A stretch of 64,000 bases of DNA, taken from positions 1 to 64,000 of the forward strand of contig JAICSO010000009.1 of assembly GCA_025936825.1 (NCBI GenBank), in the 5' to 3' direction. The DNA comes from Terriglobales bacterium. Lineage in GTDB: Bacteria; Acidobacteriota; Terriglobia; Terriglobales; Acidobacteriaceae. The notes under the pieces were generated by a model. The model saw only the letters and a list, made by a program, of their open reading frames with translations. It was not told the origin of the DNA and made no database searches. Of this stretch, positions 131 to 26,088 are shown piece after piece (position 1 is the stretch's first letter; every line of letters begins with the position of its first letter). A program made the position numbers and the translations under genes.

Positions 131-190
131 GGAAGGCGATTACACAAGTTTGCGCTTTCCATTCGCCTTTTTTGGTGCTACCGGGATAGG
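131..190 (+). repeat. Palindromic repeat family, degenerate full copy
   Basis: Contains AGGCGATTACACAAG, TTGCGCTTTCCATTCGCC and the poly-T that corresponds to the AAAAAGGCGAA core on the other strand. The TGAGTG end is degraded. Strand for all copies is the one that reads TGAGTG. Confidence 0.7.
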
Positions 191-198
191 ACTCTCAA

Positions 199-615
199 TC
201 ATGAGCACGAGCGATTGCGCCATTTGATTCTGACTAGCCTCGTACCCCCGCCCGAGACTATCGAAATTGCCACGTTCGAGTATTGATAGGTTGTCTGGCA
301 AACACCCATGCACTCTTCAGACGTGCCCAGCTTTGCGCCTCGCTCCGATACCGGAACAAGGCCGTCAATTATGGAGAAAGCCTTTCGCTCATCAATGCGA
401 TAGCTTAGGTCTACTCCATCCTTGACGAAGCGTGTCTGTTCGACCTGCATTTCGCAAACCCTACCCGTTGAGTCGAATTTTGGGGCCATCTGGACTCCAG
501 GCTCCAATGCATAAACTTCGTGGTGAGGGTATTTCTTTGCTAGGTCGGCTGAAGTCTGACCAGCCGCCGGAATACACACGAGCACCGAAAATGCTGCCAG
601 AAAAGCCTTCGTCAT
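199..615 (-). CDS. Hypothetical secreted protein
   Basis: About 138 residues. I start it at the internal ATG that begins MTKAFLAAFSVLVC, because this gives a clean signal peptide (basic start, hydrophobic stretch, cleavage near PAAGQ). The longer open frame to 738 only translates the repeat at 671-750. The mature part has four cysteines (CEM, ECMGVC and a C-terminal CS), which suggests a small periplasmic or exported protein with disulphides. I do not recognise the family. It stands alone between two copies of the repeat family, like most genes in the first 26 kb. Confidence 0.6.
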   Translation of the reverse strand: MTKAFLAAFSVLVCIPAAGQTSADLAKKYPHHEVYALEPGVQMAPKFDSTGRVCEMQVEQTRFVKDGVDLSYRIDERKAFSIIDGLVPVSERGAKLGTSEECMGVCQTTYQYSNVAISIVSGGGTRLVRIKWRNRSCS

Positions 616-670
616 GTTTTGCTCCGATTTGGCACCGCTGATCGACAGCTTAGCGCAGCTCAAACTGCCG

Positions 671-750
671 GAACAGGCGATTTCACAAGTATGCGATTTT
701 CCTTCGCCTTTTCCGTGGATTCTGAGTGAAATAGACATTCATCGTCAACG
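671..750 (+). repeat. Palindromic repeat family, full copy
   Basis: Reads AACAGGCGATTTCACAAG, then CCTTCGCCTTTTCC, then TGAGTGAAATAGAC. The arms TTTCAC and GTGAAA in the two ends are complementary, so the copy can fold into a hairpin. Confidence 0.85.
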
Positions 751-800
751 ACCAGTTTCTTAGTCCCAAAGTGGTATACAATCCGCCCCTGAGTAGGCAA

Positions 801-1442
801 ATGCGTTCAAGCTACCTAGCGCTAGTTACCCTCCTCGCGTCAAGTTGTTGGAGTTCTGATTGGACAATTCGAACTCGACGACATATTGAAGGATCGCCTT
901 ACGAAGACGCTGTCTACACGCAATACCTGAGTGGTGGCTGGCGCAGATGGGATTCCGGGTTCCCGAACGGCAAGCTCTCGCTGACACGGATTACCGACTG
1001 TTCGAATCAACGGTGGATTTTTCTGAATCATGACGACCATACATTTCAAGTCGTCCCCGCTGTGGTGAATGTCGGCGTAAAGAAAAAAATCGAATCTAGG
1101 GATACGGCCGAGCGACGAGATGCTTTCGGCTTCAAGGCAAGACATGTGGTTCAGACGACAAAATACGGGCCTTCGCGGGAGACGATACGCGACGGTTGGT
1201 ACGTCGAGCTACCATTTTCGATGGAATGCTCAGCAACCGGAAATGAATCGGAACTAGGATTTGCAATTGAAGAAACGGTCACGGAACGCTTTCCGGGACA
1301 ATTAAAAGAGACGCGCACCATTGATCGTGTTGTCGATATTTCGAAAACGAGGCTTGATCCCGCCTTGTTCAGGATTCCCCGTGGCTATCACAGCTGGAAC
1401 AGTTGGCGAGAAAAGGTAAAAGCCTTCTTTAGCGGGCCGTAA
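801..1442 (+). CDS. Hypothetical exported protein, possible lipoprotein
   Basis: About 213 residues, started at the ATG that begins MRSSYLALVTLLASSC; an upstream in-frame start at 771 would add ten polar residues ahead of the signal sequence and is less likely. The hydrophobic stretch followed by a cysteine resembles a lipobox, but alanine rather than leucine occupies the -3 position, so lipidation is uncertain. The mature protein is hydrophilic and rich in charged residues with no recognised domain. It lies between two full repeat copies and ends 30 bp before the second one. Confidence 0.65.
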   Translation: MRSSYLALVTLLASSCWSSDWTIRTRRHIEGSPYEDAVYTQYLSGGWRRWDSGFPNGKLSLTRITDCSNQRWIFLNHDDHTFQVVPAVVNVGVKKKIESRDTAERRDAFGFKARHVVQTTKYGPSRETIRDGWYVELPFSMECSATGNESELGFAIEETVTERFPGQLKETRTIDRVVDISKTRLDPALFRIPRGYHSWNSWREKVKAFFSGP

Positions 1443-1472
1443 TGTTATGCCCGACGTTCTGCTTTCTCACGC

Positions 1473-1558
1473 AGTTGTTGAAAACAGGCGTTTGCGCAAG
1501 CATGCGCTTTTCATTCGCCTTTTCGAGACATTGAGTGCTATCGAGATTATCGCCAATT
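1473..1558 (+). repeat. Palindromic repeat family, full copy
   Basis: One of the best preserved copies: GTTGTTGAAAACAGGCG, TTGCGCAAGCATGCGC, ATTCGCCTTTTCGAG, then TTGAGTGCTATCGAG and ATTATCGCCAATT. It separates two convergent genes and could also act as a transcription barrier. Confidence 0.9.
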
Positions 1559-1560
1559 CA

Positions 1561-2073
1561 TCAGTAGTACGAATGTTTCTCTGAAAATTGTTCGGCAGCG
1601 ACTAATGCACGGAGTTCCGTTAAATCCTGCGCTCCGCTAAACCCAACTCCGCCCCACAAGAACTGAGAGCGTTTCCCACCATCGGCACTCAGAAGAACGA
1701 TGGCATAGTAGTGGCCAATTCCGCCCCTTTCATAATGAATAAACCATTTATCACCACAACTCCCGGCGAAGATAAGCCGCCGCCACGGCAAACGCGGCTT
1801 CTTAGGATTCACAACGTCGGTCGCCTGATACTCCTGACCGGGGTTGGCCAGCGCGAAGGACGGTTCTCTTGTGATCTCAGCGAAACTCTGTTTTACATTT
1901 GCAGGAATCGCTTCCGTGTCCTTGACGATGGTGAAGTCGCCTCTGAAGATGTTGTCTCTGCCAGCCTTGGAAAGAGATGATTTGGGCTCGCTTTGTGCTG
2001 GCAATTGTATGCAGGCGACCAACAGAAGAATAAGCAGAACACCAACCCGGGGCGCGACTCGATGTTTCGTCAT
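1561..2073 (-). CDS. Hypothetical secreted protein
   Basis: 170 residues. The start ATG gives a typical signal peptide, with basic residues, then VGVLLILLLVACIQLPAQ and a cleavage site after AQS. The mature part contains a predicted beta-rich segment around FAGSCGDKWFIHYERGG but no family I can name. The stop codon lies only 3 bp beyond the end of the neighbouring full repeat. It is probably exported to the periplasm. Function unknown. Confidence 0.7.
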   Translation of the reverse strand: MTKHRVAPRVGVLLILLLVACIQLPAQSEPKSSLSKAGRDNIFRGDFTIVKDTEAIPANVKQSFAEITREPSFALANPGQEYQATDVVNPKKPRLPWRRLIFAGSCGDKWFIHYERGGIGHYYAIVLLSADGGKRSQFLWGGVGFSGAQDLTELRALVAAEQFSEKHSYY

Positions 2074-2131
2074 GGAGGATCTCCTACTCCTTGGAACGCA
2101 GCTGTAGGTACATCTTGCCGCAATCGTAGGT

Positions 2132-2160
2132 TGTTGTTAACAGGCGATTTCACTCATTGA
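2132..2160 (-). repeat. Half copy of repeat family, holds a stop codon
   Basis: Reads TTGTTAACAGGCGATTTCAC then TCATTGA on the plus strand. The TGA stop of the gene at 2154-2366 (preceded by a CAA codon) is inside the conserved CAATGAGTG end. Confidence 0.9.
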
Positions 2161-2366
2161 CCCGACAAAGATGGCGTATGGGCATCCTCGTTGTGAGGAC
2201 GTTTTCTTGGCCAAACTGATCCCAACGCCCCGGCGACAAAAATTGCCCACATGATCTCTACGAAGAGAACGTCTGGATCAAGCCAGCCGAGTTTGGGCTT
2301 CAGTCCTGATGAGAAGCGCCCAGCAATGAATCCGAGTAGTAGTGACGCGAGAATTGCCAGCACCAC
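2154..2366 (-). CDS. Small membrane protein
   Basis: 70 residues with two predicted membrane helices (around residues 2-20 and 33-52) and a charged C-terminal tail. The first helix begins at the start codon, so no cleavable signal is needed. The last codons are GGA-CAA-TGA, and the CAA-TGA belongs to the half repeat. No family recognised. It is one of several such small membrane proteins in this region. Confidence 0.55.
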   Translation of the reverse strand: MVLAILASLLLGFIAGRFSSGLKPKLGWLDPDVLFVEIMWAIFVAGALGSVWPRKRPHNEDAHTPSLSGQ

Positions 2367-2479
2367 TGTCGTACGTGCTGACCAGTATTTGCGTTCTGGT
2401 TGTTGGAACCTGGTCCTTGGAGTCCTCGGAGTGACGCTCTGGAGATCGAAAGAATATTACTCCAGAGGCCCGTTCCACG

Positions 2480-2506
2480 GTTGACGTTAACAGGCGATAG
2501 CGCGAG
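2480..2506. repeat. Partial copy of repeat family
   Basis: TTGACGTTAACAGGCGATAG followed by CGCGAG matches one end of the family. The match breaks off near 2506, upstream of the IS1595-type transposase region. Confidence 0.65.
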
Positions 2507-2547
2507 ATTATGCACTTGACACAAGGTACTCACGCCAGCTATACTCC

Positions 2548-2697
2548 TTATCGTGATTTGCTCTTCTGAGACCGTGGCTTTTGCTCTGACTGCTTCTTTA
2601 CATGCTTTTTTACCGCTTTCACGATCTCAGGGTGAAAGATGTGCTTCAGCGCTTCATCGTCCGTCATGTGTATTGGGTGCTTCTTCTTTGTTGGCAT
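2548..2697 (-). CDS. Small basic protein next to IS1595 transposase
   Basis: 49 residues, beginning MPTKKKHPIHMTDDEALKHI and ending in a lysine/serine/arginine-rich tail. It is divergently placed 11 bp from the transposase start, so the two share one promoter region. The reading frame is open over its whole length and has a coherent amphipathic helix (DDEALKHIFHPEIVKAVKKH). I infer that it is a passenger or accessory gene of the insertion sequence, but a resident antitoxin-like or nucleic-acid-binding protein is also possible. No family is certain. Confidence 0.5.
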   Translation of the reverse strand: MPTKKKHPIHMTDDEALKHIFHPEIVKAVKKHVKKQSEQKPRSQKSKSR

Positions 2698-2708
2698 TAA
2701 GGTGACCT

Positions 2709-3632
2709 ATGAAAAACAACGAAGCCATTGACCTCGTAGAGCTGGTTGAACGTTATGGCGACGATCAGAAATGCCGCACCTACCTTGAGCATTTACGCTG
2801 GCCGCACGGCATCCGTTGTCCGAAATGTGGCGGCGACAAGATTTCGTCCATCTTGAAGCGTGATCAATACAACTGTGATTCCGAATCATGCGGCTATCAG
2901 TTCTCCGTTACGGCTGGAACGATCTTTCACGATACGCACCTGTCGCTTACCAAATGGTTCCTTGCTACGTTCATTCTCTGCCAATCCCGCAAGGGCGTCA
3001 GTGCAAATCAGCTTAAAAGAATGCTGGGAATCAACTATCGCACCGCGTGGTACCTTTGCCATCGTATTCGCCATGCCGTTGAGCAAGTGATTGAACCAAC
3101 CTTGAAGGGCACGGTAGAGATGGATGAAACCTATGTAGGCGGAATGCAGCACAGGGGGAAGGGATGGAACACGCCCGACAATAACAAGGAAATCGTGATT
3201 GGGCTGAGGCAACGCGGTGGAGAGTTGCGCTTCTTCCACGCGGAAGATGCCAAGTCCGGTACGCTGTCTAAGTACATCCGGGAGAATGTCGGCAAGGATG
3301 TTGAGGTAATGATGACCGACGAATTTCCCGCCTACCCCAAGGCTATGATTGGTGCTGGAATCAAAGGTGGGCAGCATAAGACGATCCGCCATCGTGACCG
3401 AATCTATGTTGACGGCGATATTCACACGAATACTGTGGAATCCGCGTTCTCGCTTTTGAAGCGTGGCATCATGGGAACGTGGCATCGTGTGTCTGCGAAG
3501 CATCTACCTGCCTATCTTGACGAAATGACTTGGCGATTCAATAACCGCAAGAACCCGTTTCTGTTCCGCGATACGATGCTGAGACTCATCAACTCTGAGA
3601 ATCTCGAATACAAGGAACTTATTGCTGCCTAA
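2709..3632 (+). CDS. IS1595-family (ISXO2-like) transposase
   Basis: 307 residues, full length for the family. The N-terminus carries a zinc ribbon with cysteines near 37, 40, 56 and 61 (CPKC ... NCDSESC), followed by a helical linker and the ISXO2-like DDE-type catalytic domain. The first acidic residue is in EMDETYVGG, the second in MTDEFPAY and the third position is in NTVESAFSLLKR. It catalyses DNA strand transfer of its own element. The gene is intact. I could not find terminal inverted repeats, so the element's ends are not fixed; its 3' end overlaps the convergent gene at 3619 by 14 bp, which suggests that the insertion altered the last codons of that gene. Confidence 0.93.
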   Translation: MKNNEAIDLVELVERYGDDQKCRTYLEHLRWPHGIRCPKCGGDKISSILKRDQYNCDSESCGYQFSVTAGTIFHDTHLSLTKWFLATFILCQSRKGVSANQLKRMLGINYRTAWYLCHRIRHAVEQVIEPTLKGTVEMDETYVGGMQHRGKGWNTPDNNKEIVIGLRQRGGELRFFHAEDAKSGTLSKYIRENVGKDVEVMMTDEFPAYPKAMIGAGIKGGQHKTIRHRDRIYVDGDIHTNTVESAFSLLKRGIMGTWHRVSAKHLPAYLDEMTWRFNNRKNPFLFRDTMLRLINSENLEYKELIAA

Positions 3633-4746
3633 CTTCAGCATCGAAAATAGTTTCCTGTGCGCTGGCCCACTCGCGAAATGTAAACCTATACGGCTGGGAC
3701 CGCTGTGTTCGCGTAACTTCGATTTGCAATTTTCGTATATTGCCTAACTGCTTTGGTGAGGCATTAGGAACCTTTAACCCAATCCACCCATTCCTCTCGA
3801 TGCCAGGTTTCAAACCGTGTTGCTTAACAGACCTCCAGAGCGAGAGCGCGTTTAGATTGTGCTCATCGAAGTTTTTGTAAGGATAGGTTTTTGTCATAAC
3901 CGGAATGTGGATGATCCAGCCTGATAGGTCTTCCATCGGCTTGCCCGTGAACAGAGTGCCATCTACATCCGCAAATATTGATATATCTCGAATCCCAACC
4001 TCCTCATCAGAAACCATCGAGAGTTTTAGAAAGAGGGCTGAATGATTGGAAAAAAAAGTTGTGCCATGGCAAAGCGTTAACAGCTTGCATTCCAAGTCTT
4101 GAGGATAGACTCGGATCGCAGCAAGGGCCTTCGCCTGCTCTTGAATAACGCCCTCGGCGTCTCTTAGAACGCCAAGACGCTGCCAATCGCTAAGACGCTC
4201 CTTCGTATTGCCTTTCTCATCGACCGAGATGCATCCGAATCTTGCTACCGTGTGAAAATTTCTCAGCGATTCAGCAACTCTCACAAAATGATTTACTGCC
4301 GGATCGTCACTCTGGATCAGAAGGCTTCCGGCAAACTCGCTATTCTCAATCTCCATCGGTGCAGTGCCATGAAACATAACCGTCACGTTTGTAAATGTGC
4401 AATCCTCAAATCTTTTGCCGTCAAGTTCAACGGTCTCATTGTGAAACTTCACCCCCCGCACCAATTTGAATACAGGATCACCGGAGAAACCTTGCCGTGC
4501 CTGTTCCGCTGGCTCAGAAGCCTCTACCATTGGAGTACCCTCTTTTTCGAGGCGCGAGACCTCACGCTGCAAGTGAGCAATGGAATGTGCATCGCGTTCT
4601 AGTCTTTCTTTGTGCAGCCACCATATCAATATCCAGATGATGATTACAGCCAGCAGAACGCAGGCGACAAACGAAAAGGGGGCGGCTTTAATCACTGGCC
4701 ACTCCCTGTGGAGGAATTCGAGCGAGCTTGTATCCGGAAGTTCCAT
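3619..4746 (-). CDS. Hypothetical membrane-anchored protein
   Basis: 375 residues from the ATG that begins MELPDTSSLEFLH. A longer frame to 4881 is open, but its extra 45 residues translate the repeat at 4784-4862 and are rejected. One membrane helix (AAPFSFVACVLLAVIIIW, about residues 20-43) is followed by a short coiled-coil segment, and then a large soluble domain. The segment VKFHNETVELDGKRFEDCTF resembles pentapeptide-like beta repeats, seen also in other short membrane-anchored proteins, but no catalytic motif is visible. The C-terminus overlaps the transposase gene tail and may be altered. Confidence 0.65.
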   Translation of the reverse strand: MELPDTSSLEFLHREWPVIKAAPFSFVACVLLAVIIIWILIWWLHKERLERDAHSIAHLQREVSRLEKEGTPMVEASEPAEQARQGFSGDPVFKLVRGVKFHNETVELDGKRFEDCTFTNVTVMFHGTAPMEIENSEFAGSLLIQSDDPAVNHFVRVAESLRNFHTVARFGCISVDEKGNTKERLSDWQRLGVLRDAEGVIQEQAKALAAIRVYPQDLECKLLTLCHGTTFFSNHSALFLKLSMVSDEEVGIRDISIFADVDGTLFTGKPMEDLSGWIIHIPVMTKTYPYKNFDEHNLNALSLWRSVKQHGLKPGIERNGWIGLKVPNASPKQLGNIRKLQIEVTRTQRSQPYRFTFREWASAQETIFDAEVRQQ

Positions 4747-4783
4747 GGCGAAATTGTACTCCCGCACCTTGCGTGAAGTACAC

Positions 4784-4862
4784 AATCCCGCGATAGCGCA
4801 AGCTTGCGCTTTTGTTTCGCCTAAAACTGGGATTTTGAGTGCTATAGGGATTTTTCGCCAAC
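4784..4862 (+). repeat. Palindromic repeat family, full copy
   Basis: CGCGATAGCGCAAGCTTGCG, then TTTCGCC, then TTTTGAGTGCTATAGGG and TTTTTCGCCAACTAG. The perfect palindrome GCGCAAGCTTGCGC is at its centre-left. It lies between two divergent genes. Confidence 0.88.
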
Positions 4863-4941
4863 TAGCAACTCGCCGCCCCACGTCGGTGTGCTGTGACTGT
4901 GATCACCGCAAGGCAACGCACTGAGCGCGTACAGTCCATTT

Positions 4942-5448
4942 TTGATCCTGAAGGGCTGGAAAGCAATCGCTGAGCACGTTTCTAGCGCGGTGGCTACGGT
5001 CATACGCTGGAAATCGAGGGGCCTTCCCGTCCACAGATGCGGCCCCCATGAACGTGGCTGCGTGGTCGGATACTCCGAAGAAATTGACGCCTGGTTGCGT
5101 AGCAGTTCTCTCTGGGCACACGACGGGCTTAACCAGCGCAGTGTAATGGCACGAAGAGCAGCCGTGGCACGGTTTCAAAGGAAACGAAGGCGCGAAGAGA
5201 AGGTTCGGATACTTGAGCACCTACTTCACTTCCAAGAAAAAATCCAAATCATTTTAGATTTGTGCGCGGAAGGCGAATTTTCAAAGGAGCGCGCAGCCAG
5301 AGCATCAATCCTGTTAGCTCAGCTACAGAGAGAATTTGAAAGCGAGGGTAAGGCCACGGAGCGCTCTAGAACGCGGGATGTGCACGGGCCTGAAGGGCGC
5401 CGTCTATGGTCCTGCAATTTGCGATGCTCTAGAACTCTTGAAATGTAG
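4942..5448 (+). CDS. Helix-turn-helix DNA-binding protein
   Basis: 168 residues from a TTG start. Residues 4-55 (GWKAIAEHV ... VIRWKSRGLPVHR ... SEEIDAWLRS) match the winged helix-turn-helix (MerR/excisionase-like) unit found in many short Acidobacteria proteins. A basic linker and a helical region follow. From about 5340 a second frame (to 5545) encodes a more protein-like C-terminus containing CDALELLKCSSEQVDG, so a frameshift near 5340-5400 may have changed the original tail. Role: probably a transcription regulator; its target is unknown. Confidence 0.6.
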   Translation: MILKGWKAIAEHVSSAVATVIRWKSRGLPVHRCGPHERGCVVGYSEEIDAWLRSSSLWAHDGLNQRSVMARRAAVARFQRKRRREEKVRILEHLLHFQEKIQIILDLCAEGEFSKERAARASILLAQLQREFESEGKATERSRTRDVHGPEGRRLWSCNLRCSRTLEM

Positions 5449-5678
5449 TTCGGAGCAAGTTGACGGCAAAACCGATCAGTCTGCCGTATCGGCTCTCCTA
5501 AGGCATCTACAGGAGTCCCGAGCGAATTTAGAAAAACTCCAATGATCGCAGCTAAACACCGGCGGGCTAGGTAGCCTCACGATTTTCAATGAATGTAGTG
5601 GCAATTTATCGTCAACTGACGTGTGCGGCAACTGCGATCCGGCGTTTGGCGCGCACTGTCAGTGAGCAGGATGGGGGA

Positions 5679-6074
5679 TTAGAGGTCCCTTCTAGCCAGG
5701 ACCAATTCTGCCTCGTGCCCATCAAAGGTCAGCTTCCAACTGGTAATCGATACTGGAAATGCGATGCCATCCCTTCCCACATGCCACCACTTCTCGCCGG
5801 TGCTCTCATGCGGGTGCCTCCAAGCATTCAGGAAGCGCTCTATGTCGGAGCTTGGCCGAATATCCAAAACTGTCATCCGCAAAAACTCTTCTTCGGAAAA
5901 TCCGTAGGCCTGCGTCGCTGATTTATTTACCATCAGAAAGGCAAGCGTTTTGGCGTCGTAAATCCACATTGGATATGGACTTCTTGCAAACGGCAACCCG
6001 AGCACGTCGGGTTCTCGGACAGCTTCACTCTTCACAGGAGTCCTCCCGTAAGAACGTCGCCAGACAGCAACCAC
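5679..6074 (-). CDS. Single PAS-domain protein
   Basis: 131 residues, of which about 30-128 form one PAS domain (PFARSPYPMWIYDAKTL, VNKSATQAYGFSEEEFL, PVSITSWKLTFDGHEAELV). No kinase, GGDEF or other output domain follows, and the frame closes soon after the fold ends. It may be a stand-alone sensor that passes its signal by protein contact, or the remnant of a longer sensor kinase. The diguanylate cyclase at 6584 on the other strand also has a PAS domain. Confidence 0.7.
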   Translation of the reverse strand: MVAVWRRSYGRTPVKSEAVREPDVLGLPFARSPYPMWIYDAKTLAFLMVNKSATQAYGFSEEEFLRMTVLDIRPSSDIERFLNAWRHPHESTGEKWWHVGRDGIAFPVSITSWKLTFDGHEAELVLARRDL

Positions 6075-6583
6075 GCTGCTTCATCTAGTTCGACGGTTAA
6101 ATGGAACGCTTGAAGGATCCCATAGCGCCATTTGGCAGAGCTGTGATGCACGTTTGTGGACCTCGCCGTAAGTAACGTGCCTCAGCCCTTTGTGGGAAAG
6201 AAGCGATTGAGAACCTGCTGTGTCCATCCGGAACTCGCAGGCCAATCTGGGAACACATGTGCTCCAGACAACGTGCCGATGTGCGCGCTATCACTGCCGG
6301 AAGGTGAAGCGCAATTTAGGATGCGAGCAGCAATAAAAAAAACGGTTGGGCGCATGCACGAAAGATGCTGGGAGGTGCTGGATCGCCCCTACTGTTCTGT
6401 GGTGGGCTGCGTGACTGACTGGCAACAGGAAACGCGCAGCCTGTTTATCGCTCCTCCGCCGGGACATGCTGAGTCCCGTTCTGGGAAAACTGAGTGACGC
6501 GGGTAATAGCCCCAATAGGCAAAGATACACTCCTTGCCGAACTGTAGCCCCACAATTGAAATGTTATTGAATGGAGGCAAACG
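6075..6583. other. Gap without a convincing gene
   Basis: A 113-codon frame at 6156-6497 on the plus strand is open, but its product has no recognised motif and an unlikely composition. A short A-run (AATAAAAAAAACGG near 6332) lies inside. I do not call a gene here. The upstream control region of the diguanylate cyclase should be in its last part. Confidence 0.4.
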
Positions 6584-7528
6584 GTGCCGCCCCGGTCAAA
6601 ACTTGACCGCTCCTGTTTGGCCGACGGAGCGGTGGAGCTAACCCGATCTTTTCACGAGGTTTTGCTGGACAGCCTCTCTGATGGCGTCTATTTCGTAGAC
6701 CCGCAACGCCGCATTCGTTATTGGAATCAGGGTTCTGCAACGATAACGGGATATGGAGCCAAAGAAATTGTTGGGCAAAGTTGTTTTGATGGTTTGCTCC
6801 AACATATTGACATCTCGGGCAAGTGCCTGTGCCATTCCGGTTGCCCACTTGCAAAAACGCTGCTCGATGGACGTAGCCGAGAGGAGCATCTGTTCTTGCA
6901 CCACAAGCGAGGCCACAGGGTTCCCGTTTGCGTGCGTGTGGCATCCATCAAGAGCAAGGGGAAGATTATTGGGGCCATGGAAGTATTTAGCGTCATAACG
7001 CCGGAAAACCAAGCCGAAAGGAGAATCCGCGAACTTGAAGGCATGGTGTTCCTCGATTATTTGACCGAGCTTCCGAATCGACGATACATCGAGCTAAAAC
7101 TGAAACAAGCTCTGGAAGAAAGTCAATCGTTTGGGCGAACCTTCGGTCTCGCGATCATAGATATCGACCACTTCAAAGATGTGAATGACGTATACGGACA
7201 TGAGGCAGGTGATTCTGCACTAAAAACACTCGCAGCAACTCTGACCGCGAGCCTGCGAGAGAAGGATGCAGTTGGCCGCTGGGGTGGTGAAGAGTTCGTG
7301 TTGCTGCTCGCGGATTCGGATCCACAGATGTTGCAACATGTGGCGGAACGCTGCCGAATGTTGATTGAGAATTCCGGTTGCCCGGAATTGATGGGCCAGT
7401 CGTTGACCGTGTCTATTGGAGCAACCCTCTTGCAAGAAGGGGACAGTACACAGTCCGCAGTTGATCGCGCTGATCGACTGCTATACACAAGCAAGTCGCG
7501 AGGGCGAAATCGAGTATCAATTGGATAG
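6584..7528 (+). CDS. PAS-GGDEF diguanylate cyclase
   Basis: 314 residues. Residues 20-140 form a PAS sensor domain with the cysteine-containing insert GKCLCHSGCPLAKTL, which could bind a metal or sense redox state. Residues 150-312 form the GGDEF domain: LTELPNRRY, the metal-binding DIDHF near 193-197, the active-site GGEEF at 234-238, and an inhibitory-site RxxD (REKD, 225-228) five residues before it. All key residues are intact, so it should make cyclic di-GMP and be inhibited by its product. The protein is probably cytosolic, as no membrane helix is seen. A PilZ receptor lies at 27 kb. Confidence 0.93.
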   Translation: MPPRSKLDRSCLADGAVELTRSFHEVLLDSLSDGVYFVDPQRRIRYWNQGSATITGYGAKEIVGQSCFDGLLQHIDISGKCLCHSGCPLAKTLLDGRSREEHLFLHHKRGHRVPVCVRVASIKSKGKIIGAMEVFSVITPENQAERRIRELEGMVFLDYLTELPNRRYIELKLKQALEESQSFGRTFGLAIIDIDHFKDVNDVYGHEAGDSALKTLAATLTASLREKDAVGRWGGEEFVLLLADSDPQMLQHVAERCRMLIENSGCPELMGQSLTVSIGATLLQEGDSTQSAVDRADRLLYTSKSRGRNRVSIG

Positions 7529-8536: not shown

Positions 8537-8623
8537 CAACTGTTGAAATCAGGCGTTATCACAACTTTGCGCCTTCTGTTCGCCTTTTCGGGGATTTTGA
8601 GTGCTATTGCGATCTTCACCAAT
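8537..8623 (+). repeat. Palindromic repeat family, full copy
   Basis: CAACTGTTGAAATCAGGCG, TTTGCGCCTTCTGTTCGCC, TTTTGAGTGCTATTGCG and CTTCACCAATC. Lies 115 bp after the Fis-type gene. Confidence 0.9.
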
Positions 8624-8667
8624 CACTGCGTCTATTTTGCTTTGGGTACGCCTCCTTGATTGCTTCT

Positions 8668-9442: not shown

Positions 9443-9474
9443 TTTGAGCGCTAACGCCTGTTCTCAGTAATTGA
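9443..9474 (+). repeat. Half copy of repeat family
   Basis: TTTTGAGCGCTAACGCCTGT followed by TCTCAGTAATTG. Downstream of the DUF6429 gene in the same orientation as that gene. Confidence 0.8.
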
Positions 9475-10403: not shown

Positions 10404-10496
10404 CAGTTGACGTTAAATCCTCAATTACACTCATAATGCCGCCAAAAGGCGAAGGAAAAGCGCACACTTGTGCTATCGCCTGATTTCAACAGTTAT
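10404..10496 (-). repeat. Palindromic repeat family, full copy
   Basis: CAGTTGACGTTAAATCC, ATTACACTCATAATGCC, AAAAGGCGAAGGAAAAGCGC, ACTTGTGCTATCGCCTG and TTTCAACAGTT. All parts of the consensus are present. Confidence 0.92.
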
Positions 10497-10530: not shown

Positions 10531-10770
10531 GTGGGTACAGGAAGAACGCTGATGATTGCCGCCGAAATTCTGGCCGTTGCCGCCGTAGCGGTTCAGTTTC
10601 TTCTGCCGAGCGAGATGGGAATCACCATCCATGTCGGGCACAAGGCATTGGGGCTGCCGATTCGCTGGGTCGTGCCGTTAGTGCTTATCTCCGCTGCTGG
10701 CGCACTGAGTTTGTTCGCCCTCGGTGCAATGTACTGGCGACTGGGGCAGGTCAAGATTCCGGGTCAATGA
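10531..10770 (+). CDS. Small membrane protein
   Basis: 79 residues from a GTG start with GGAGG nine bases upstream. Two predicted membrane helices (about residues 5-22 and 48-68) are joined by a loop with two prolines. The final codons are GGT-CAA-TGA, and CAATGA is the start of the half repeat that follows. Function unknown. Confidence 0.6.
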   Translation: MGTGRTLMIAAEILAVAAVAVQFLLPSEMGITIHVGHKALGLPIRWVVPLVLISAAGALSLFALGAMYWRLGQVKIPGQ

Positions 10771-10795
10771 GTGAAACGCCTGTTTTCAACAATTG
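10765..10795 (+). repeat. Half copy of repeat family, holds a stop codon
   Basis: CAATGAGTGAAACGCCTG followed by TTTTCAACAATTG. The TGA is the stop codon of the gene at 10531. Confidence 0.9.
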
Positions 10796-11679: not shown

Positions 11680-11755
11680 ACTGTTGGTAAATCCCTATTA
11701 CGCTCAAAACCCCTCGGGAGGGGTCAATGAGTGCAATCGCCTGGTTGCGCCAATT
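11680..11755. repeat. Two inverted half copies around a GC hairpin
   Basis: CTGTTGGTAAATCCCTATTA then CGCTCA on the left, CAATGAGTGCAATCGCCTG then GTTGCGCCAATTG on the right, with CCCCTCGGGAGGGG between them in place of the usual core. This copy shows most clearly that the family consists of two inverted, related ends. Confidence 0.85.
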
Positions 11756-11782: not shown

Positions 11783-12043
11783 GTGAAAAGAACCCGCCAC
11801 ATCGGCGTCTGGCTTCTGTTCGTACTCCTTCAGGCTCTTGGGGTGCTGATTCCCCGGTTGACCAACATTCATGCGAACATTTGGCCCGCGTTCGCCTTGC
11901 TGTTATTAGTTCCGGGGATTCTTCTCGCTGCCGTGCTCGGGCTCACTTGGGGAGTTGTGTTTTCGATACCCGTAAACGGTGTTGTTTGGTACTTGGGTTT
12001 ACGCTTGCTGGACTGTAATGAGGGGTCGGAGGCGAGCCAATGA
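11783..12043 (+). CDS. Small membrane protein
   Basis: 86 residues from the GTG that begins VKRTRHIGVWLLFVLLQ. A longer frame from 11657 is open but its added residues translate the repeat at 11680-11755. Three predicted membrane helices (about residues 6-24, 30-52 and 57-75). The final codons AGC-CAA-TGA run into the half repeat. No family recognised. Confidence 0.6.
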   Translation: MKRTRHIGVWLLFVLLQALGVLIPRLTNIHANIWPAFALLLLVPGILLAAVLGLTWGVVFSIPVNGVVWYLGLRLLDCNEGSEASQ

Positions 12044-12069
12044 GCGTTATCGCCTGGTTTGAACAGTTA
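12039..12069 (+). repeat. Half copy of repeat family, holds a stop codon
   Basis: CAATGAGCGTTATCGCCTGG followed by TTTGAACAGTTA. TGA at 12041-12043 is the stop of the preceding gene. Confidence 0.88.
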
Positions 12070-13501: not shown

Positions 13502-13588
13502 GGTTGGCGTAACATCGCTATAGCACTCAAAATGCCCGAAAAAGGCGAAACAAAGGCGCAAACTTGCGCAATCGCCTGTTTACGTCAC
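13502..13588 (-). repeat. Palindromic repeat family, full copy
   Basis: GGTTGGCGTAACATCGC, TATAGCACTCAAAATGCCCG, AAAAAGGCGAAACAAAGGCG, AACTTGCGCAATCGCCTG and TTTACGTCA. The outermost arms TGGCGTAACA and TGTTTACGTCA are complementary. The stop codon of the gene at 13585-14124 lies in its right end. Confidence 0.93.
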
Positions 13589-15808: not shown

Positions 15809-15838
15809 CTGGCGAAAAATCTCTATAGCACTCATTGA
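15809..15838 (-). repeat. Half copy of repeat family
   Basis: GGCTGGCGAAAAATCTCTAT then AGCACTCATTGA. Same orientation as the gene at 15882, which ends 43 bp away. Confidence 0.88.
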
Positions 15839-16160: not shown

Positions 16161-16192
16161 CAATTGGCGAAAAATCGCCATAGCACTCATTG
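16161..16192 (-). repeat. Half copy of repeat family, holds a stop codon
   Basis: CAATTGGCGAAAAATCGCCA then TAGCACTCATTG. The TGA stop of the gene at 16187-16459 lies inside it, again preceded by CAA. Confidence 0.92.
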
Positions 16193-16507: not shown

Positions 16508-16538
16508 GTTGGTGAAACATCTCTATTGCACTCATTGA
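16508..16538 (-). repeat. Half copy of repeat family
   Basis: TTGGTGAAACATCTCTATTG then CACTCATTGA; AACAGGCGAATGG follows a few bases later and may be a fragment of a second copy. Downstream of the minus-strand gene at 16601. Confidence 0.85.
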
Positions 16539-18187: not shown

Positions 18188-18278
18188 GCTGTTGATAAAT
18201 CTCGATTTCACTCAAAATGGCCGAAAAAGGCGAACGGAAAGCGCAAAGTTGTGAAATCGCCTGATTACAGGAATTGAC
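18188..18278 (-). repeat. Palindromic repeat family, full copy
   Basis: GCTGTTGATAAATCTC, GATTTCACTCAAAATGGCCG, AAAAAGGCGAACGGAAAGCG, AAAGTTGTGAAATCGCCTG and ATTACAGGAATTG. CGATTTCAC and GTGAAATCG in the two ends are exact complements, so pairing between the ends is strong in this copy. Confidence 0.93.
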
Positions 18279-18314
18279 AGGATAGGAGCGGAGCCTGTGC
18301 AATGGACTTGCCCA

Positions 18315-18743
18315 ATGAGACGCTTAATCGTCCCGCTCGCGTTTCTGTGTTGCACCATTTCTGTCCACGCGCAAGAAGACCGTTCGACCGCATCACAACT
18401 GAGCGGCTGCTATGAAGTCATCTCGTTATCGTGGAATCCGCCAGACGACACCATCAAAATGATTCCGCCACGGTTCAGATTGACCGCCGATGGCCACATT
18501 CATGCGGTCCCCAGCGAAGACTTTCCACGGGGTTCTTGGACCGCCGAAGCAAAGAGGCTGAAGCTGACGTTCGGATTTATGGGAGGGTTCAGCGGGAGCC
18601 TAAAAGCGGCAAGTTCTAAGGAATTCGGTGGCAAGTTGAAGGAATGGTCGGATCATCGCTGCTGGCCTTGGGGCTGGTGCGGTTCTCAAGGGAAAAGACG
18701 AACTGGTTTGCTTTGGATTCGTAAAACAGATTGTGGCGGTTGA
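18315..18743 (+). CDS. Hypothetical secreted protein
   Basis: 142 residues from the ATG that begins MRRLIVPLAFLCCTISVHAQ, a clear signal peptide; an ATG-less extension to 18297 is ignored. The mature part starts SGCYEVISLSWNPPDDTIKM and holds a lipocalin-like small beta domain pattern: GCYE near the start, then FRLTADGHIHAVPSEDFPRG. The last 30 residues are rich in tryptophan, cysteine and arginine and may be altered by a frameshift. Function unknown. Confidence 0.6.
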   Translation: MRRLIVPLAFLCCTISVHAQEDRSTASQLSGCYEVISLSWNPPDDTIKMIPPRFRLTADGHIHAVPSEDFPRGSWTAEAKRLKLTFGFMGGFSGSLKAASSKEFGGKLKEWSDHRCWPWGWCGSQGKRRTGLLWIRKTDCGG

Positions 18744-18945
18744 TGACCGAATCGTTTCCGCAAAATCCGCATTTCACTGATTTGAGACCCGAGAGCGTGG
18801 GTAGACCTTAAAAGGAAAGCTATACGGACGTAAAGAGTCCGAACCTGCGACTCACTTGCTTAGCTGCGGCATTTCCGAGCCAAGCTCCACATATGCCACA
18901 AATTAACCACACCGTCCCTGCGCTCCAAGGGTGCAGGGGTAGGGG

Positions 18946-19122
18946 TCAGCGGAGTTCATGAAGAATGATGACGACAGTCGCACCACCAAAAGATGCGAAG
19001 AAGACAAACGCGATCGGTATGACCAAGGCTTGAAGAGCATAACGCCGCCATCGCGGAATTGCCAATAAACTCAAGAACAGGATCACAGACGAGGCGATGA
19101 GCGGCAGCCACACAGTGAACAT
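18946..19122 (-). CDS. Small membrane protein
   Basis: 58 residues from the internal ATG that begins MFTVWLPLIASSVILFLSLL; the frame extends to 19197 with a basic, non-hydrophobic stretch, so either start is possible. Two predicted membrane helices with a short basic loop (RWRRY). No family recognised. Confidence 0.45.
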   Translation of the reverse strand: MFTVWLPLIASSVILFLSLLAIPRWRRYALQALVIPIAFVFFASFGGATVVIILHELR

Positions 19123-19198
19123 GCTGGAAATCTTACTACTCGCCTTTCGGCTGGAGAACCCTCTTTTTGGTTTGACCGTGGGGAACCGCTGCCCCAAA

Positions 19199-19228
19199 CT
19201 GTCGTTAAATCCCCATTACACTCAATGA
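19199..19228 (-). repeat. Half copy of repeat family, holds a stop codon
   Basis: CTGTCGTTAAATCCCCATTA then CACTCAATGAG. TGA at 19222-19224 (minus strand) is the stop codon of the short gene that follows. Confidence 0.85.
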
Positions 19229-19329
19229 GAGGCAAGCCTCACGATCCCCCACATCGCTATTGCGATAAGAACGATAACTCCCCACTGAACGGCTAACCAG
19301 ACCTTGCTCCTTCGTTCGGGAATCAACAT
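19222..19329 (-). CDS. Very small membrane protein
   Basis: 35 residues, MLIPERRSKVWLAVQWGVIV followed by a second hydrophobic stretch and RLASH. One membrane helix after a basic N-terminus. It fills the space between two half repeats, and its stop codon lies inside the left one in the same position as for the other genes of the region. No clear ribosome site is visible, so the call rests on the layout. Confidence 0.4.
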   Translation of the reverse strand: MLIPERRSKVWLAVQWGVIVLIAIAMWGIVRLASH

Positions 19330-19348
19330 GCCTAGGAGGGTAGCACCA

Positions 19349-19380
19349 AACTGTTGCAAAATAGCGATTGCACTCATTGA
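19349..19380 (-). repeat. Half copy of repeat family
   Basis: AACTGTTGCAAAATAGCG then ATTGCACTCATTGA. The minus-strand gene at 19390 ends 10 bp away in the same orientation. Confidence 0.9.
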
Positions 19381-19389
19381 CCCCTCCCC

Positions 19390-19869
19390 CTACCATCGGG
19401 CAACGGTGCAGGAACGCTCGGCGTTCTTTGTTCCCCCGTCTACGATATGAAAGCGCAGACGACCATAGAACCACACGTCTCTGCCATGCTGTCTCTTTGG
19501 GCGGAACGTCCAATCTTTCACCGCCTCGATTGCGGAACCGAACAGCAGTGGGTGACCGCTGACGACGCGGGCGCACGAGACTTTTCCATTGTCATCCACA
19601 AGAACGTCGATCACAACATAACCATCAAGCCTGCTGCGATCTAGCATTGCGGGCTTTAGCGGCGCGGCGCAATGTGTTGCGTTGCGGACCAAAGATTTCG
19701 TGTCAAACCAAAGCGGCTTGTGGTCTCTGCCCACGTACACGGGCTTATCAGTTGCGCACGAAGGTCCTGAATGCGCAATCCGGGGATTGTTCACAGTCTG
19801 CAAACGGGCAGGGATTGAGAGTACGAGAACCGCGGCTGATAGCGACAGAAACCTGCGGATCAGCCCCAT
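19390..19869 (-). CDS. TonB C-terminal-domain protein
   Basis: 159 residues from the ATG that begins MGLIRRFLSLSAAVLVLSIP (signal peptide or anchor). Residues 75-150 match the TonB C-terminal fold: LDGYVVIDVLVDDNGKVSCA, VVSGHPLLFGSAIEAVKDW and TFRPKRQHGRDVWF. A proline-rich spacer and ExbB/ExbD genes are absent, and the N-terminal helix may be cleaved, so this is a periplasmic TonB-like domain protein rather than a classical TonB. Such proteins are numerous in Acidobacteria. No direct link to the TonB receptor at 49 kb. Confidence 0.82.
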   Translation of the reverse strand: MGLIRRFLSLSAAVLVLSIPARLQTVNNPRIAHSGPSCATDKPVYVGRDHKPLWFDTKSLVRNATHCAAPLKPAMLDRSRLDGYVVIDVLVDDNGKVSCARVVSGHPLLFGSAIEAVKDWTFRPKRQHGRDVWFYGRLRFHIVDGGTKNAERSCTVARW

Positions 19870-19921
19870 GCCTGAAGTTGACACCAGCGGCTGGATATTA
19901 GTTCCGCTCTCGGTCTTGGAC

Positions 19922-19952
19922 AACTGTTGTTAAATCGCGATATCACTCATTG
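19922..19952 (-). repeat. Half copy of repeat family, holds a stop codon
   Basis: AACTGTTGTTAAATCGCG then ATATCACTCATTGAGG. The TGA stop of the gene at 19947 is inside. This copy is the best match to the half repeat split by the IS110 element. Confidence 0.93.
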
Positions 19953-20249
19953 AGGCGATTCCTGAAGCTTTCCGAGCGCCCTGTAAACCCAGACCGCCAC
20001 CGTCACGATGATCAGACCTCCGACTAGGCTGCAGACGTTGTCAAACACCGGGAATTCCGGACCTTGCCAGTGCGATGGCAGCACCAGAAACGGGGCTGCA
20101 AATGGCCAGAACAAAGTGATTAAAGTGTCGGGGCGACCCCGGCCCAGGGAGTGAAGCACTCCAAGAAAGATCTGAAGGAGCGCGAAATAAACCACGTAAC
20201 CCGCCAGGAACCCAATGAACCCTCGCCCGATCCGCCTCGCTGTCCGCAT
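19947..20249 (-). CDS. Small membrane protein
   Basis: 100 residues with three predicted membrane helices (about residues 9-32, 42-58 and 68-90) and a basic N-terminus (MRTARRIGRG). The last codons CCT-CAA-TGA lie in the half repeat. Inner membrane; no family recognised. Confidence 0.6.
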   Translation of the reverse strand: MRTARRIGRGFIGFLAGYVVYFALLQIFLGVLHSLGRGRPDTLITLFWPFAAPFLVLPSHWQGPEFPVFDNVCSLVGGLIIVTVAVWVYRALGKLQESPQ

Positions 20250-20294
20250 TCTGTATTAGTTCTATTCCGATAAACCATCTCACAAAATTTGAAG

Positions 20295-20345
20295 GTTGGC
20301 GATAAATCCCCATTACACTCATCGGCCACGAAAAAGACGAATAGA
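20295..20345 (-). repeat. Truncated full copy of repeat family
   Basis: GGTTGGCGATAAATCCCC, ATTACACTCATCGGCCACG and AAAAAGACGAATAGAGGG; the right end is missing. Confidence 0.8.
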
Positions 20346-20363
20346 GGGCAGACAGAACTGGAG

Positions 20364-20834
20364 TTAATCAGGTATTAAGAGCCGCAAACGCCGCTGTGCC
20401 TTCTGAACACCACGAGAGGTCGATGCCATTGTGTGCGCCCTAAAAACTATCGCGGCAACCAGAATGCAAAAGGCAGAGTATGTGGCCGCTTCGGTGACTC
20501 TCGAGGTTCCAAGCACTTCAAGCCCGAAAACCACGATGGCACAAATCCACGTGGCGAAAACTGCGAAGCCTGCAATCGCACTTCCTAAGAGAATTCCCAG
20601 TCGCCCCAGGTGGTAATAGCTCAAGAGCACGGGAATTATCGACACAAAGGCGAGACCGAAGTTGATGTACGGATTGAGATCACGAGAGGGCGCAAGAAAG
20701 CGGTACATGGGCGTACCATCTGCCGGAATCGACGCGATCCCAATTGCAGCACCAATGACGAGAGCACACACGACGGACACCACGAAAACCTGCGTTCGGC
20801 TCAGGACATGGTATTTCTGCCACATCGGACGCAT
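20364..20834 (-). CDS. Membrane protein
   Basis: 156 residues from the ATG that begins MRPMWQKYHVLSRTQVFVVS; the open frame to 20870 includes repeat-adjacent sequence. Four predicted membrane helices (about residues 15-38, 53-75, 78-105 and 112-133), then a basic C-terminal tail with KAQRRLRLL. No family recognised. Confidence 0.6.
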   Translation of the reverse strand: MRPMWQKYHVLSRTQVFVVSVVCALVIGAAIGIASIPADGTPMYRFLAPSRDLNPYINFGLAFVSIIPVLLSYYHLGRLGILLGSAIAGFAVFATWICAIVVFGLEVLGTSRVTEAATYSAFCILVAAIVFRAHTMASTSRGVQKAQRRLRLLIPD

Positions 20835-20867
20835 TATAGCCTTCAATCCACACCCGATGCCGCCCCT

Positions 20868-20900
20868 CAATTGACGTTAAATCGCCATAGCACTCATTGA
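20868..20900 (-). repeat. Half copy of repeat family
   Basis: CAATTGACGTTAAATCGCC then ATAGCACTCATTGAGG. It lies downstream, in the same orientation, of the minus-strand pair at 21057-21541. Confidence 0.92.
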
Positions 20901-23472: not shown

Positions 23473-24681
23473 CTATTTCTTCCATGTTTCGAGTACCAAC
23501 GAGTCCAAGCGGTCCTGCCGTCCCTTAACCCACTTCGCGTAATGCCGCTCTGTGGTCTTGATGCTTTCGTGCCCGAGCAGCTTTGAGACTTCCTCAAGAG
23601 GCACGCCCTTTTCGAGAAGGTCCACGGCGAAGGTGTCCCGGAGTCGGTGGCTCATCATGTGCCCGTCATTCGGAATCTTGGCGGCCTTGAAGAGCGGAGC
23701 AATGTAATACTTCGCCCAATTCTTGGTGATGCTTTCTTCCTCACCCTTGCCGGACCAAAACACGTACTCGGGATTCCCGTTTAGAACGCTTAACAGCTCT
23801 TGTGCCACGTCTTCGGGTATAGGCACGGAAACGTGCGTGCCGGTCTTCTGTCGAGCGGTCACGATGCGGTACAACTTTTTCTTTTTGTCGTGCTGTAGCT
23901 CGCCTCGCTTTAGCGTCAGGGCGTCACGAATTGCCAAGCCGGACCAACGCATGAGCTGGATGAGCGCATGGACTTGGGCTTGCCGTTCTTTGCCCTCAAT
24001 CGTTCCATAAATCGCATCGAGCAGACGCTTGTATTCCTCTTCCGTGAGGGGCATCGTGGGCGGCTCTTCAATCTTGATCTTCGGTAATTGCGGGATTCTC
24101 GCAATCCATTGCGCCTCATAGCAATACCGGAGGAAGGACCGCACGCGCTCGCGCACTTTGGCGCGGGTGTAGCTGGATGGGTACAACTTGGGCCATGTCG
24201 CGCAAAAGCCGGTCAGCAACTCGCGGGTGATGCCGTGCACCGCGTGTACATGGTTGTGCTCGCAAAATTCGCGGAGCCGCGCTAGTTCGCGGGTGTACTT
24301 CCCCACAACTTTGTCTGTAATTCCCTGATTCTTTTTGTCTTGCAGAAAAACGTCTATCGCGTCCTGTGTGCCGTGGGCAGATTCCTCGGGCTTCGGGTCG
24401 GGGGCGCGGCCGCTTAGCTGGTCCTCAATGGCCCGCTTCTTGTTTTCAGCCTCAGCCCAAGACCGCGTTTGTGCCGATACGCGGTTCTGCTTCCCGTATT
24501 GGCTCCAGCGCAGATGCTTGGGGCAGTCGCACCGCTTACAGAACTCATCGCCCCGGTATTTGCAGTCAGCGCTGTGGCGCACAAAGATCGTGATAACGGG
24601 CGGGCCGCGTTTAACCCGCCACTTCCGCACGTTCACTTTGATCTTGGCTTTTTCGGCGTCTGTGAGGCTTAGGATGTCCAT
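23473..24681 (-). CDS. Tyrosine recombinase (integrase) beside tRNA-Ser
   Basis: 402 residues, full length. The N-terminus has a four-cysteine cluster (C40, C48, C51, C53) that may bind zinc, followed by a core-binding SAM-like domain (about 105-195) and the catalytic domain. The active-site set is complete: R252 (GLAIRD), K279, H345 and R348 (SHRLRD), H371 (LLGHES) and Y381 (RHYAKW). It starts 80 bp from the 3' end of tRNA-Ser, the usual arrangement for an element integrated at a tRNA. I found no second copy of the tRNA 3' end in the window, so the element cannot be delimited; it may extend left beyond the window or be partly decayed. Confidence 0.93.
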   Translation of the reverse strand: MDILSLTDAEKAKIKVNVRKWRVKRGPPVITIFVRHSADCKYRGDEFCKRCDCPKHLRWSQYGKQNRVSAQTRSWAEAENKKRAIEDQLSGRAPDPKPEESAHGTQDAIDVFLQDKKNQGITDKVVGKYTRELARLREFCEHNHVHAVHGITRELLTGFCATWPKLYPSSYTRAKVRERVRSFLRYCYEAQWIARIPQLPKIKIEEPPTMPLTEEEYKRLLDAIYGTIEGKERQAQVHALIQLMRWSGLAIRDALTLKRGELQHDKKKKLYRIVTARQKTGTHVSVPIPEDVAQELLSVLNGNPEYVFWSGKGEEESITKNWAKYYIAPLFKAAKIPNDGHMMSHRLRDTFAVDLLEKGVPLEEVSKLLGHESIKTTERHYAKWVKGRQDRLDSLVLETWKK

Positions 24682-24760
24682 GCCGGGGACGGTAGCACGA
24701 AATTAGCACAAAATCTGTGATGTGCATCACAAAGCCAGTATTTATGCGGGGAAATTCTGG

Positions 24761-24847
24761 CGGAGAGAGTGGGATTCGAACCCACGTTAGAGTTTCCCCT
24801 AAACACGCTTTCCAAGCGTGCGCCTTCAGCCACTCGGCCATCTCTCC
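24761..24847 (-). tRNA. tRNA-Ser (anticodon GGA)
   Basis: 87 nt with a complete cloverleaf: acceptor arms GGAGAGA and TCTCTCC, D-arm with GGCCGAGTGG, anticodon stem CACGC/GCGTG around TTGGAAA, a long variable arm (class II), and the T-loop GTTCGAATCC. The discriminator base is G; no encoded CCA. Its 3' end faces the integrase gene and is the likely attachment site. Confidence 0.97.
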
Positions 24848-24956
24848 GGCGCTATCGGGAAGCTACTGCAGAATGGCGGGCGATGCCCGCCTCTTTGATT
24901 CTATGGTGCGCTGCTGATCGCCGCAACCGCGATTCCTTATAGCCGTCTTGCTTGGT

Positions 24957-24987
24957 CAATGAGTGATATGGCGATGTGTCGCCAATC
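24957..24987 (+). repeat. Half copy of repeat family
   Basis: CAATGAGTGATATGGCGATG then TGTCGCCAATC. It lies beyond the tRNA, which shows that the family is not limited to the integrase side. Unlike the others it has no gene end before it on the same strand. Confidence 0.85.
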
Positions 24988-25002
24988 TCCACGAAAACGT
25001 CA

Positions 25003-25488
25003 TCAACGCAGCACTAGTTCCTTAACGAACTTCTTCGCACGTCCGTTTTCGAGAGCCTTTTGTCTAAGGAACTCTTCCAAAGCACCACAGCTTTCCTTGT
25101 TTGGAAGAAGCCAAGGCAAAATCTTAAACGTCCCGGCTTCAGTCTCCACCATGAGCGCAAATCCTCTGTCGTAGAACAATCGCTTCCAGACACGCCTAAT
25201 GCTTGTGTACTCGATCTTGGCCGTCCTCCTGCACATCTGGAGCGTACCTATTGGAAGTAGCATGCTGTCGATTTCGAGTAACAGATAGCGTTCAAACCAA
25301 ATACAGCGCACACTGAGAATCAATGCGAACGTGACGAGAAGGAGGCCAATGAGGATGTGAAGCCAAAGTCGGAACCAAAAATAAGAAAACCCCCAGAGCC
25401 CGATAGACATCTCCCCGAAGCCACAAACGAAAAACACGAGGATAGTTCCAAGTCGCGGATTGTAGGGGTACTGATTCGGTACGTCCAT
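25003..25488 (-). CDS. Membrane protein
   Basis: 161 residues. Two long hydrophobic segments (about 13-38 and 40-65) are followed by a soluble domain with CIWFERYLLLEIDSMLLPIG and a C-terminal part with LVETEAGTFKILPWLLP-like strands, which resembles a membrane-anchored PH-like domain. That likeness is weak. The C-terminus is basic (RAKKFVKELVLR). Function unknown. Confidence 0.6.
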   Translation of the reverse strand: MDVPNQYPYNPRLGTILVFFVCGFGEMSIGLWGFSYFWFRLWLHILIGLLLVTFALILSVRCIWFERYLLLEIDSMLLPIGTLQMCRRTAKIEYTSIRRVWKRLFYDRGFALMVETEAGTFKILPWLLPNKESCGALEEFLRQKALENGRAKKFVKELVLR

Positions 25489-25622
25489 TCAATTGCCTGT
25501 CAATGACAGTGGAATGGGAGACCGGGTATCCTGGCAACATTACCGGTGTAATCAAGCGTGATCATCGATGCTTTGTCCACCATTGTGTCGGGAGGGGTTT
25601 TAGCCACAGCACCATCATAGAT

Positions 25623-25685
25623 GTTGTTATCAGGCGTTAGCACAAGTGTACGCCTTCTATTCGCCTTTCAGCCTATTGCTGAGAA
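25623..25685 (+). repeat. Truncated full copy of repeat family
   Basis: GTTGTTATCAGGCGTTAGC, ACAAGTGTACGCC, TATTCGCCTTTCAG. The TGAGTG end is lost. Confidence 0.8.
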
Positions 25686-25776
25686 CTCAGCGGAGGAATT
25701 TTGAGGCATTATGGGGCTTTACCAATAGCTACCGAATCGCACCTGCTACAATCCCGACTCTAAGGAGGGAAGGACG

Positions 25777-26043
25777 ATGATACTTGCTCTCGTACTTGGG
25801 GCTGCTGCAACTGTAACAGTATTCGCGCTGACCATTGGTGTTTGGAAGAACTCGATGGTCATTACTGCTGTTCTGATGGCATTGGCGTTCATAGCGGGAG
25901 CCCTGCTGATGGCGGAAGGTAGTCTCGCCATGCCCATCTGCGTGGGCCTGGCATTCGCTTTTGTGGTGTACTTCTGCTATATGCTGACCCAGTTAATAGC
26001 AACGCTGAAGCAAATTGCCATGGCGATGCAGGCGAGAAAGTGA
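25777..26043 (+). CDS. Small membrane protein
   Basis: 88 residues with three predicted membrane helices (1-20, 24-44 and 50-75), preceded by GGAGGGAAGGACG as ribosome site. The C-terminal helix is amphipathic and basic (TLKQIAMAMQARK). No family recognised. Confidence 0.65.
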   Translation: MILALVLGAAATVTVFALTIGVWKNSMVITAVLMALAFIAGALLMAEGSLAMPICVGLAFAFVVYFCYMLTQLIATLKQIAMAMQARK

Positions 26044-26060
26044 TGCCAACCACGATGATT

Positions 26061-26088
26061 GTTGTTATCAGGAGATTACGCTCACCGA
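26061..26088 (-). repeat. Half copy of repeat family, last one seen
   Basis: GTTGTTATCAGGAGATTACG then CTCACCGAG. From here to the right end of the window I saw no further copy. Confidence 0.7.

Follow-up and report, generated by a model that had tools for sequence, protein, structure and literature searches.

The first 64,000 nucleotides of a contig from a Terriglobales bacterium (Acidobacteriota; Acidobacteriaceae; assembly GCA_025936825.1, contig JAICSO010000009.1, here C91), which we call the window, carry in their left 26 kb a family of short repeats that are probably the recombination sites of mobile gene-cassette arrays. Gene cassettes are a main known route by which bacteria stockpile and swap single genes. 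In the arrangement proposed here, a cassette would be a stretch of DNA bounded by two sites that as a rule holds no more than a single small gene, which may face either way. Three observations carry this reading: neighbouring sites share one polarity, the sites lie between genes, and homology between loci ends at the site centre more often than at random. Together they support a cassette system, one of the two origins that the initial annotation had suggested for the repeats.

Site anatomy and array polarity

The basic unit of the family is a 25-bp arm that occurs in two forms, A and B, and a full copy is an inverted pair of the two: a B arm, a spacer of 1–41 bp (median 21 bp) and an inverted A arm. 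Arm A reads TGNYGNNAAATCNCNATNNCACTCA, with TTGACC often following it; arm B has the centre CAGGCG where A has ATCGCC. The initial annotation had taken the ends of a full copy for inverted versions of one half, which is right as to the inversion, whereas the arms themselves differ in their centres. Viewed as a site of about 25–28 bp, an arm comprises an outer half (TGNYGNNAA), a centre of about 6 bp and an inner half (ATNNCACTCA, often followed by TTGACC). Of the 78 full copies across 162 loci, 77 pair an A with a B arm and the remaining one is B-B; a further 330 arms stand alone (212 A and 118 B).

Arms are coupled to their centres: of 425 sites one is scored as a hybrid, and the other 424 belong to form A or form B. 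When the GGCG shared by both centres is read on one strand, A sites run inner-centre-outer (237 sites) and B sites outer-centre-inner (187 sites), so the centres of both arms in a full copy have the same polarity despite the inversion. Such coupling would be expected if exchange took place between A and A and between B and B only; hybrid sites were rejected as proof of A-by-B exchange, given the single case among 425.

Polarity is the same in 217 of 224 pairs of neighbours within 2 kb (median gap of these, 643 bp), a tandem one-polarity arrangement that is also a trait of integrons, and neighbouring A sites have identical orientation in all 61 cases. Although 54% of the sequence in the loci is called coding, confidently called genes contain the midpoints of only 3 of 393 elements.

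In a test against shuffled partners over 77 full copies from all loci, the real arms show no excess of pairing in the outer stem (z = −1.0) and a slight excess in the inner stem (z = 2.4, reached by 12 of 1,000 shuffles). The complementary changes that the initial annotation had noticed are thus present in the copy at 18,190 and are not general. The idea of an RNA element was rejected, since the transfer RNA (tRNA) gene is the sole match in an Rfam scan of the window, with no RNA family for the repeats, and folding z-scores of eight copies range from −2.2 to 0.9.

Homology borders and a proposed exchange mechanism

Homology ends were taken from alignments of at least 300 bp and at least 78% identity between loci, some of them from one genome (23 kept, 6 dropped), and ends of insertion sequences were left out of the count. 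Sixteen of the 39 interior ends are no more than 40 bp from a site centre (random expectation 7.8%; P = 1e-8) and nine no more than 20 bp (4.3%). Of nine hand-picked borders, six (four A pairs and two B pairs) show high identity next to the shared DNA and low identity beyond it, with the change at the centre. The clearest pair, L181 and L193, comes from two metagenome-assembled genomes (MAGs) and shares 98.3% identity over 723 bp, with a switch at both cassette ends: site identity drops from 18/19 to 12/20 at one border and from 20/20 to 5/19 at the other. Pooled over all nine borders, matches make up 130 of 173 positions next to the shared DNA and 97 of 178 beyond it; for unrelated A sites they make up 49% on the outer and 58% on the inner side.

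We propose that a site-specific recombinase acting in trans would swap strands at the site centre and so excise, insert or replace cassettes. Two half-sites around a centre of about 6 bp make a tyrosine recombinase the likeliest candidate. As the sites of an array share their polarity, excision and insertion rather than inversion would result, and fixed polarity combined with crossover in a short centre would be the trace expected of such an enzyme. We infer the recombinase, its type and circular intermediates from these patterns in the DNA; the enzyme may act on double-stranded DNA or on a folded single strand.

Several observations weigh against this reading. Twenty-three of the 39 interior homology ends are farther than 40 bp from any site centre. 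Three of the nine border pairs, which were chosen by hand, lack the switch: in two, homology ends before the site, and one is ambiguous. The data consist of MAGs, in which assembly may be chimeric. Single arms outnumber full copies by 330 to 78, meaning that the palindrome is not required everywhere. In 133 of 213 cassettes there is no confident gene call; the 80 with a called gene come from a second version of gene calling, and gene finding is weak in this material. Gene direction agrees with the array in 41 cases and opposes it in 42, on which a preferred gene direction in cassettes was rejected. Finally, searches of the genome, its relatives and the array loci found no recombinase linked to the arrays.

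Where genes are called, they are mostly small, and at some single arms the gene end lies inside the arm, at an offset of −2 in eight A and four B cases. Several array loci (L276:4350-4498, L108:9035-9183, L171, L187 and L153) also have in common a further conserved sequence of about 150 bp.

The family in the window, the genome and its relatives

Scored with a two-form weight matrix, the left 26.15 kb of the window contains 31 arms above 10 bits and the right 37.85 kb contains none; in first-order Markov versions of the left part (20 in all) the average is 0.1 arms. A cut-off of 8 bits yields 32 arms in the window, and profile models add two A arms with an indel (10,405–10,434 and 8,598–8,624). 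The resulting 34 arms form eight full, two-armed copies and 18 single arms, and a 27th copy (134–175) is interrupted by an insertion sequence, in good agreement with the "about 26 copies" first reported; repeat finding also recovers the family within the range claimed earlier. Copies span 134–26,084, and the remaining 38 kb has none. They fall into three polarity blocks (665–8,624; 9,445–20,896; 24,960–26,084), for which a single replication direction is insufficient as an explanation. The features are as follows (coordinates in the window, strand, description).

1..137, +: assigned as right end of an IS1111-type (IS110 family) element, contig starts inside it; cut a B arm; neighbour, not array machinery
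134..175, +: cut copy, leftover half B arm and inner part of full copy
665..747, +: full copy B-A
1476..1556, +: full copy B-A
2132..2156, +: single B arm
2482..2506, +: single B arm
4778..4860, +: full copy B-A, weak B arm (8.8 bits)
5590..5614, −: single A arm
8541..8624, +: full copy B-A, A arm with indel
9445..9469, −: single B arm; polarity switch point
10405..10491, −: full copy A-B, A arm with indel
10767..10791, −: single B arm with indel
11682..11752, −: full copy A-B, short spacer
12041..12065, −: single B arm
13505..13587, −: full copy A-B
15810..15834, +: single A arm
16165..16189, +: single A arm
16510..16534, +: single A arm
18190..18272, −: full copy A-B
18756..18780, +: single A arm, weak (12.3 bits)
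19200..19224, +: single A arm
19352..19376, +: single A arm
19925..19949, +: single A arm
20297..20321, +: single A arm
20872..20896, +: single A arm; middle polarity block ends
24960..24984, −: single A arm; third polarity block begins
25622..25646, +: single B arm
26060..26084, +: single B arm

Restriction to the left 26 kb, as the initial annotation had it, is correct within the window; beyond it, many other contigs carry the family. The window is the start of its contig in a draft genome of 6.54 Mb in 141 contigs. A model of the full copy has at least 70 matches in this genome (E up to 10), 18 of them inside the window, a lower bound for which 150 of 1,007 first-look candidates were scored. 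Copies are clustered on many contigs, with several clusters at contig ends, and no even spread over the chromosome was seen. Among relatives, the full-copy model (E 0.001) detects copies in 11 of 41 genomes and a single-arm model (E 0.01) in 10 of 21, the genome of the window being counted in both; all carriers in these searches belong to the same bacterial family as this genome. The local amplification that the initial annotation had suggested was rejected on these grounds. In a collection of 84,980 species, an exact pattern matched at least 112 stretches. Of the 80 that were listed, 71 carry the label Acidobacteriota and nine the labels of other phyla; these nine are, by our estimate, about chance level for 18 fixed bases (7–8 expected).

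Of 30 open reading frames scanned in the window, 10 pass the Pfam cut-off: eight of the 10 chosen as known-looking (two transposases, an integrase, GGDEF, ankyrin and TIR proteins, and LuxR-type and Fis-type regulators) and two of the remaining 20 (DUF6632 and TonB_C). The array region includes IS1595-type and IS110-type transposase genes (2709–3632 and 14188–15309). A phage-type integrase gene lies beside a tRNA-Ser gene (23473–24847), and part of the region around it is probably a tRNA-integrated island.

The site family also has a parasite. Positions 1 to about 137 are, judged by the features below, the right end of an IS1111-type element. Its conserved non-coding region is present in 7 of 41 genomes, every one a site carrier, and has nine matches in the genome of the window. 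In the copy of a relative at L127, an IS110-family transposase gene (PF01548 and PF02371) ends at most about 40 nt upstream of that region. Subterminal inverted repeats of 13 bp were read from the ends of different copies; the ends given for the element are approximate. The right end is included in 16 of 18 aligned copies, most of which continue with sequence resembling a B arm's inner half, and at the one locus looked at, the left end of the element is preceded by a B arm's outer half. For these two reasons, the transposase gene just upstream and the position of the left end at this one locus, an attI-like array head was rejected as an identity for the conserved leader. The element shares with the IS1111 family its IS110-type transposase, the downstream non-coding region, the subterminal inverted repeats and a single specific target, and differs from other members in that it targets the centre of B arms belonging to the present sites. 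Besides the window, it lies at L127:45-1362, L282:6545-6780 and L376:8858-9751. The non-coding region, about 250 nt between the transposase gene and the right end, is likely a guide RNA; Rfam holds no family that matches it.

Candidate recombinases and known systems

Which enzyme could move the cassettes? The genome of the window has 26 tyrosine-recombinase matches. In a search of 15 genomes, this one included and four of the 11 carriers of the full-copy model left out, no IntI scored above the TIGR02249 cut-off (best 113.6 of 265 bits), although a very diverged IntI could escape such a search. The most IntI-like recombinase, on contig C122, was rejected as the missing integrase, being present in 1 of 31 genomes (this one) and having no site above 11 bits on its contig. 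The IntI-like recombinases of two relatives, G002 and G003, were also set aside as drivers: four of five loci are without a site, and a truncated copy at G002:C24 lies near a B arm. Related tyrosine integrases occur near sites in three other loci (L209:1077-2303, L148:641-1078 and L109:9610-10077), two of them beside tRNA genes. Array-adjacent integrases were rejected as drivers, since some are beside tRNA genes and at least two families are represented; the profile behind this assessment was built from few proteins.

The alternative that survives best, while still unlikely, is a special case of the cassette reading that names the enzyme: true integrons, or clusters of attC sites lacking integron integrases (CALIN), in which full copies would be diverged attC sites that fold as single strands, single arms decayed remnants, and a diverged IntI the enzyme in trans. 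The ends of a canonical attC are RYYYAAC...GTTRRRY. None of the 77 full copies has them, and random intervals also have none, so this count says little beyond absence. The B-spacer-A order does match the layout R''-L''-loop-L'-R' with a non-matching centre, and as in integron arrays and CALIN, mostly small genes stand between asymmetric two-armed sites of one polarity, with exchange at a fixed point of the site. The slight pairing of the inner stem can be counted in the same direction, as can reports of integrons in Acidobacteriota (PMC8618304) and of modelled attC sites of Acidobacteria (PMC8352920). Against this, the outer stem has no pairing signal, single arms, which are most of the sites, cannot fold, and the IntI searches gave the results described above. 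The arms here, unlike attC ends, are conserved in sequence; genes run in both directions, and one genome has several arrays. No attI platform was found at an array head, the sole conserved leader found being the insertion-sequence end.

It is improbable that the sites are intergenic repeats that mark the edges of exchanged DNA by chance, in the manner of repetitive extragenic palindromes (REP), their paired form (REPIN) or miniature inverted-repeat transposable elements (MITEs). They do resemble REP and REPIN, with their REP-associated tyrosine transposases (RAYT), in being short, intergenic inverted pairs and single halves in many copies, and insertion of an IS1111-type element into the B arm adds to the likeness, as relatives of IS1111 target REP as well as attC (PMC11187229). 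What such repeats do not account for is polarity shared over kilobases and the switch of identity at one position of the arm. Neither is there RAYT linkage: no arm above 11 bits occurs around the eight Y1-transposase matches of the genome (about 3.2 kb each). Instead of the dispersal over the genome typical of REP and REPIN, 18 of 70 matches lie within 26 kb and more clusters on other contigs.

Similarly improbable, finally, is the other special case that names an enzyme, dif modules in which A and B would be diverged dif sites used by the host XerC and XerD. The 11-6-11 layout fits, and by eye, with no statistics behind the comparison, the inner six bases of the outer half (YGWWAA) resemble YGATAA, the XerC half of dif-like sites in this order, whereas the inner half is, again by eye, unlike the XerD half TTATGTWAANT. 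The pattern GTCYGATAA-6-TTATGTWAANT, with 15 matches in 13 of 15 genomes compared with 6 for a reversed control, is probably the dif site of this order; GTC precedes the site in the ten distinct places listed, for example at L256 (G000:C34:365,963-365,985) and L344-L355. The plasmid dif modules (pdif) of Acinetobacter, also XerC/XerD systems, are similar in that single genes are bounded by sites of about 28 bp with a short spacer, and dif is likewise reported to be the target of a site-specific insertion sequence (PMC10132070). Such modules need sites of alternating orientation (PMC13141974), yet the 61 pairs of neighbouring A sites all agree, and genes like XerC and XerD are present in genomes without sites, too. 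Here, moreover, the arrays are chromosomal, polarity is constant, only one half resembles dif by eye and the two forms A and B are coupled.

On the best reading, then, this would be a cassette system whose operation resembles that of integrons or dif modules and which matches the definition of neither. More tentatively, and with the balance somewhat against it, it may be a third natural cassette system besides integrons and Xer-driven dif modules: chromosomal arrays of Terriglobia, several per genome, that exchange single genes at an A/B-coupled site of 25–28 bp, have a recombinase not yet linked to the cassettes and host an IS1111 parasite. Searches of the open-licence literature listed no paper that describes these repeats; most subscription papers and bioRxiv lay outside this search. 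If the cassette reading is true, a phylum common in soil would have a cassette system of its own, missed by searches for IntI and canonical attC ends, and its cassettes would form a catalogue of small, mostly unknown genes. The coupled A and B sites of fixed polarity would then be well suited to testing how the geometry of a site sets the choice between excision and inversion.

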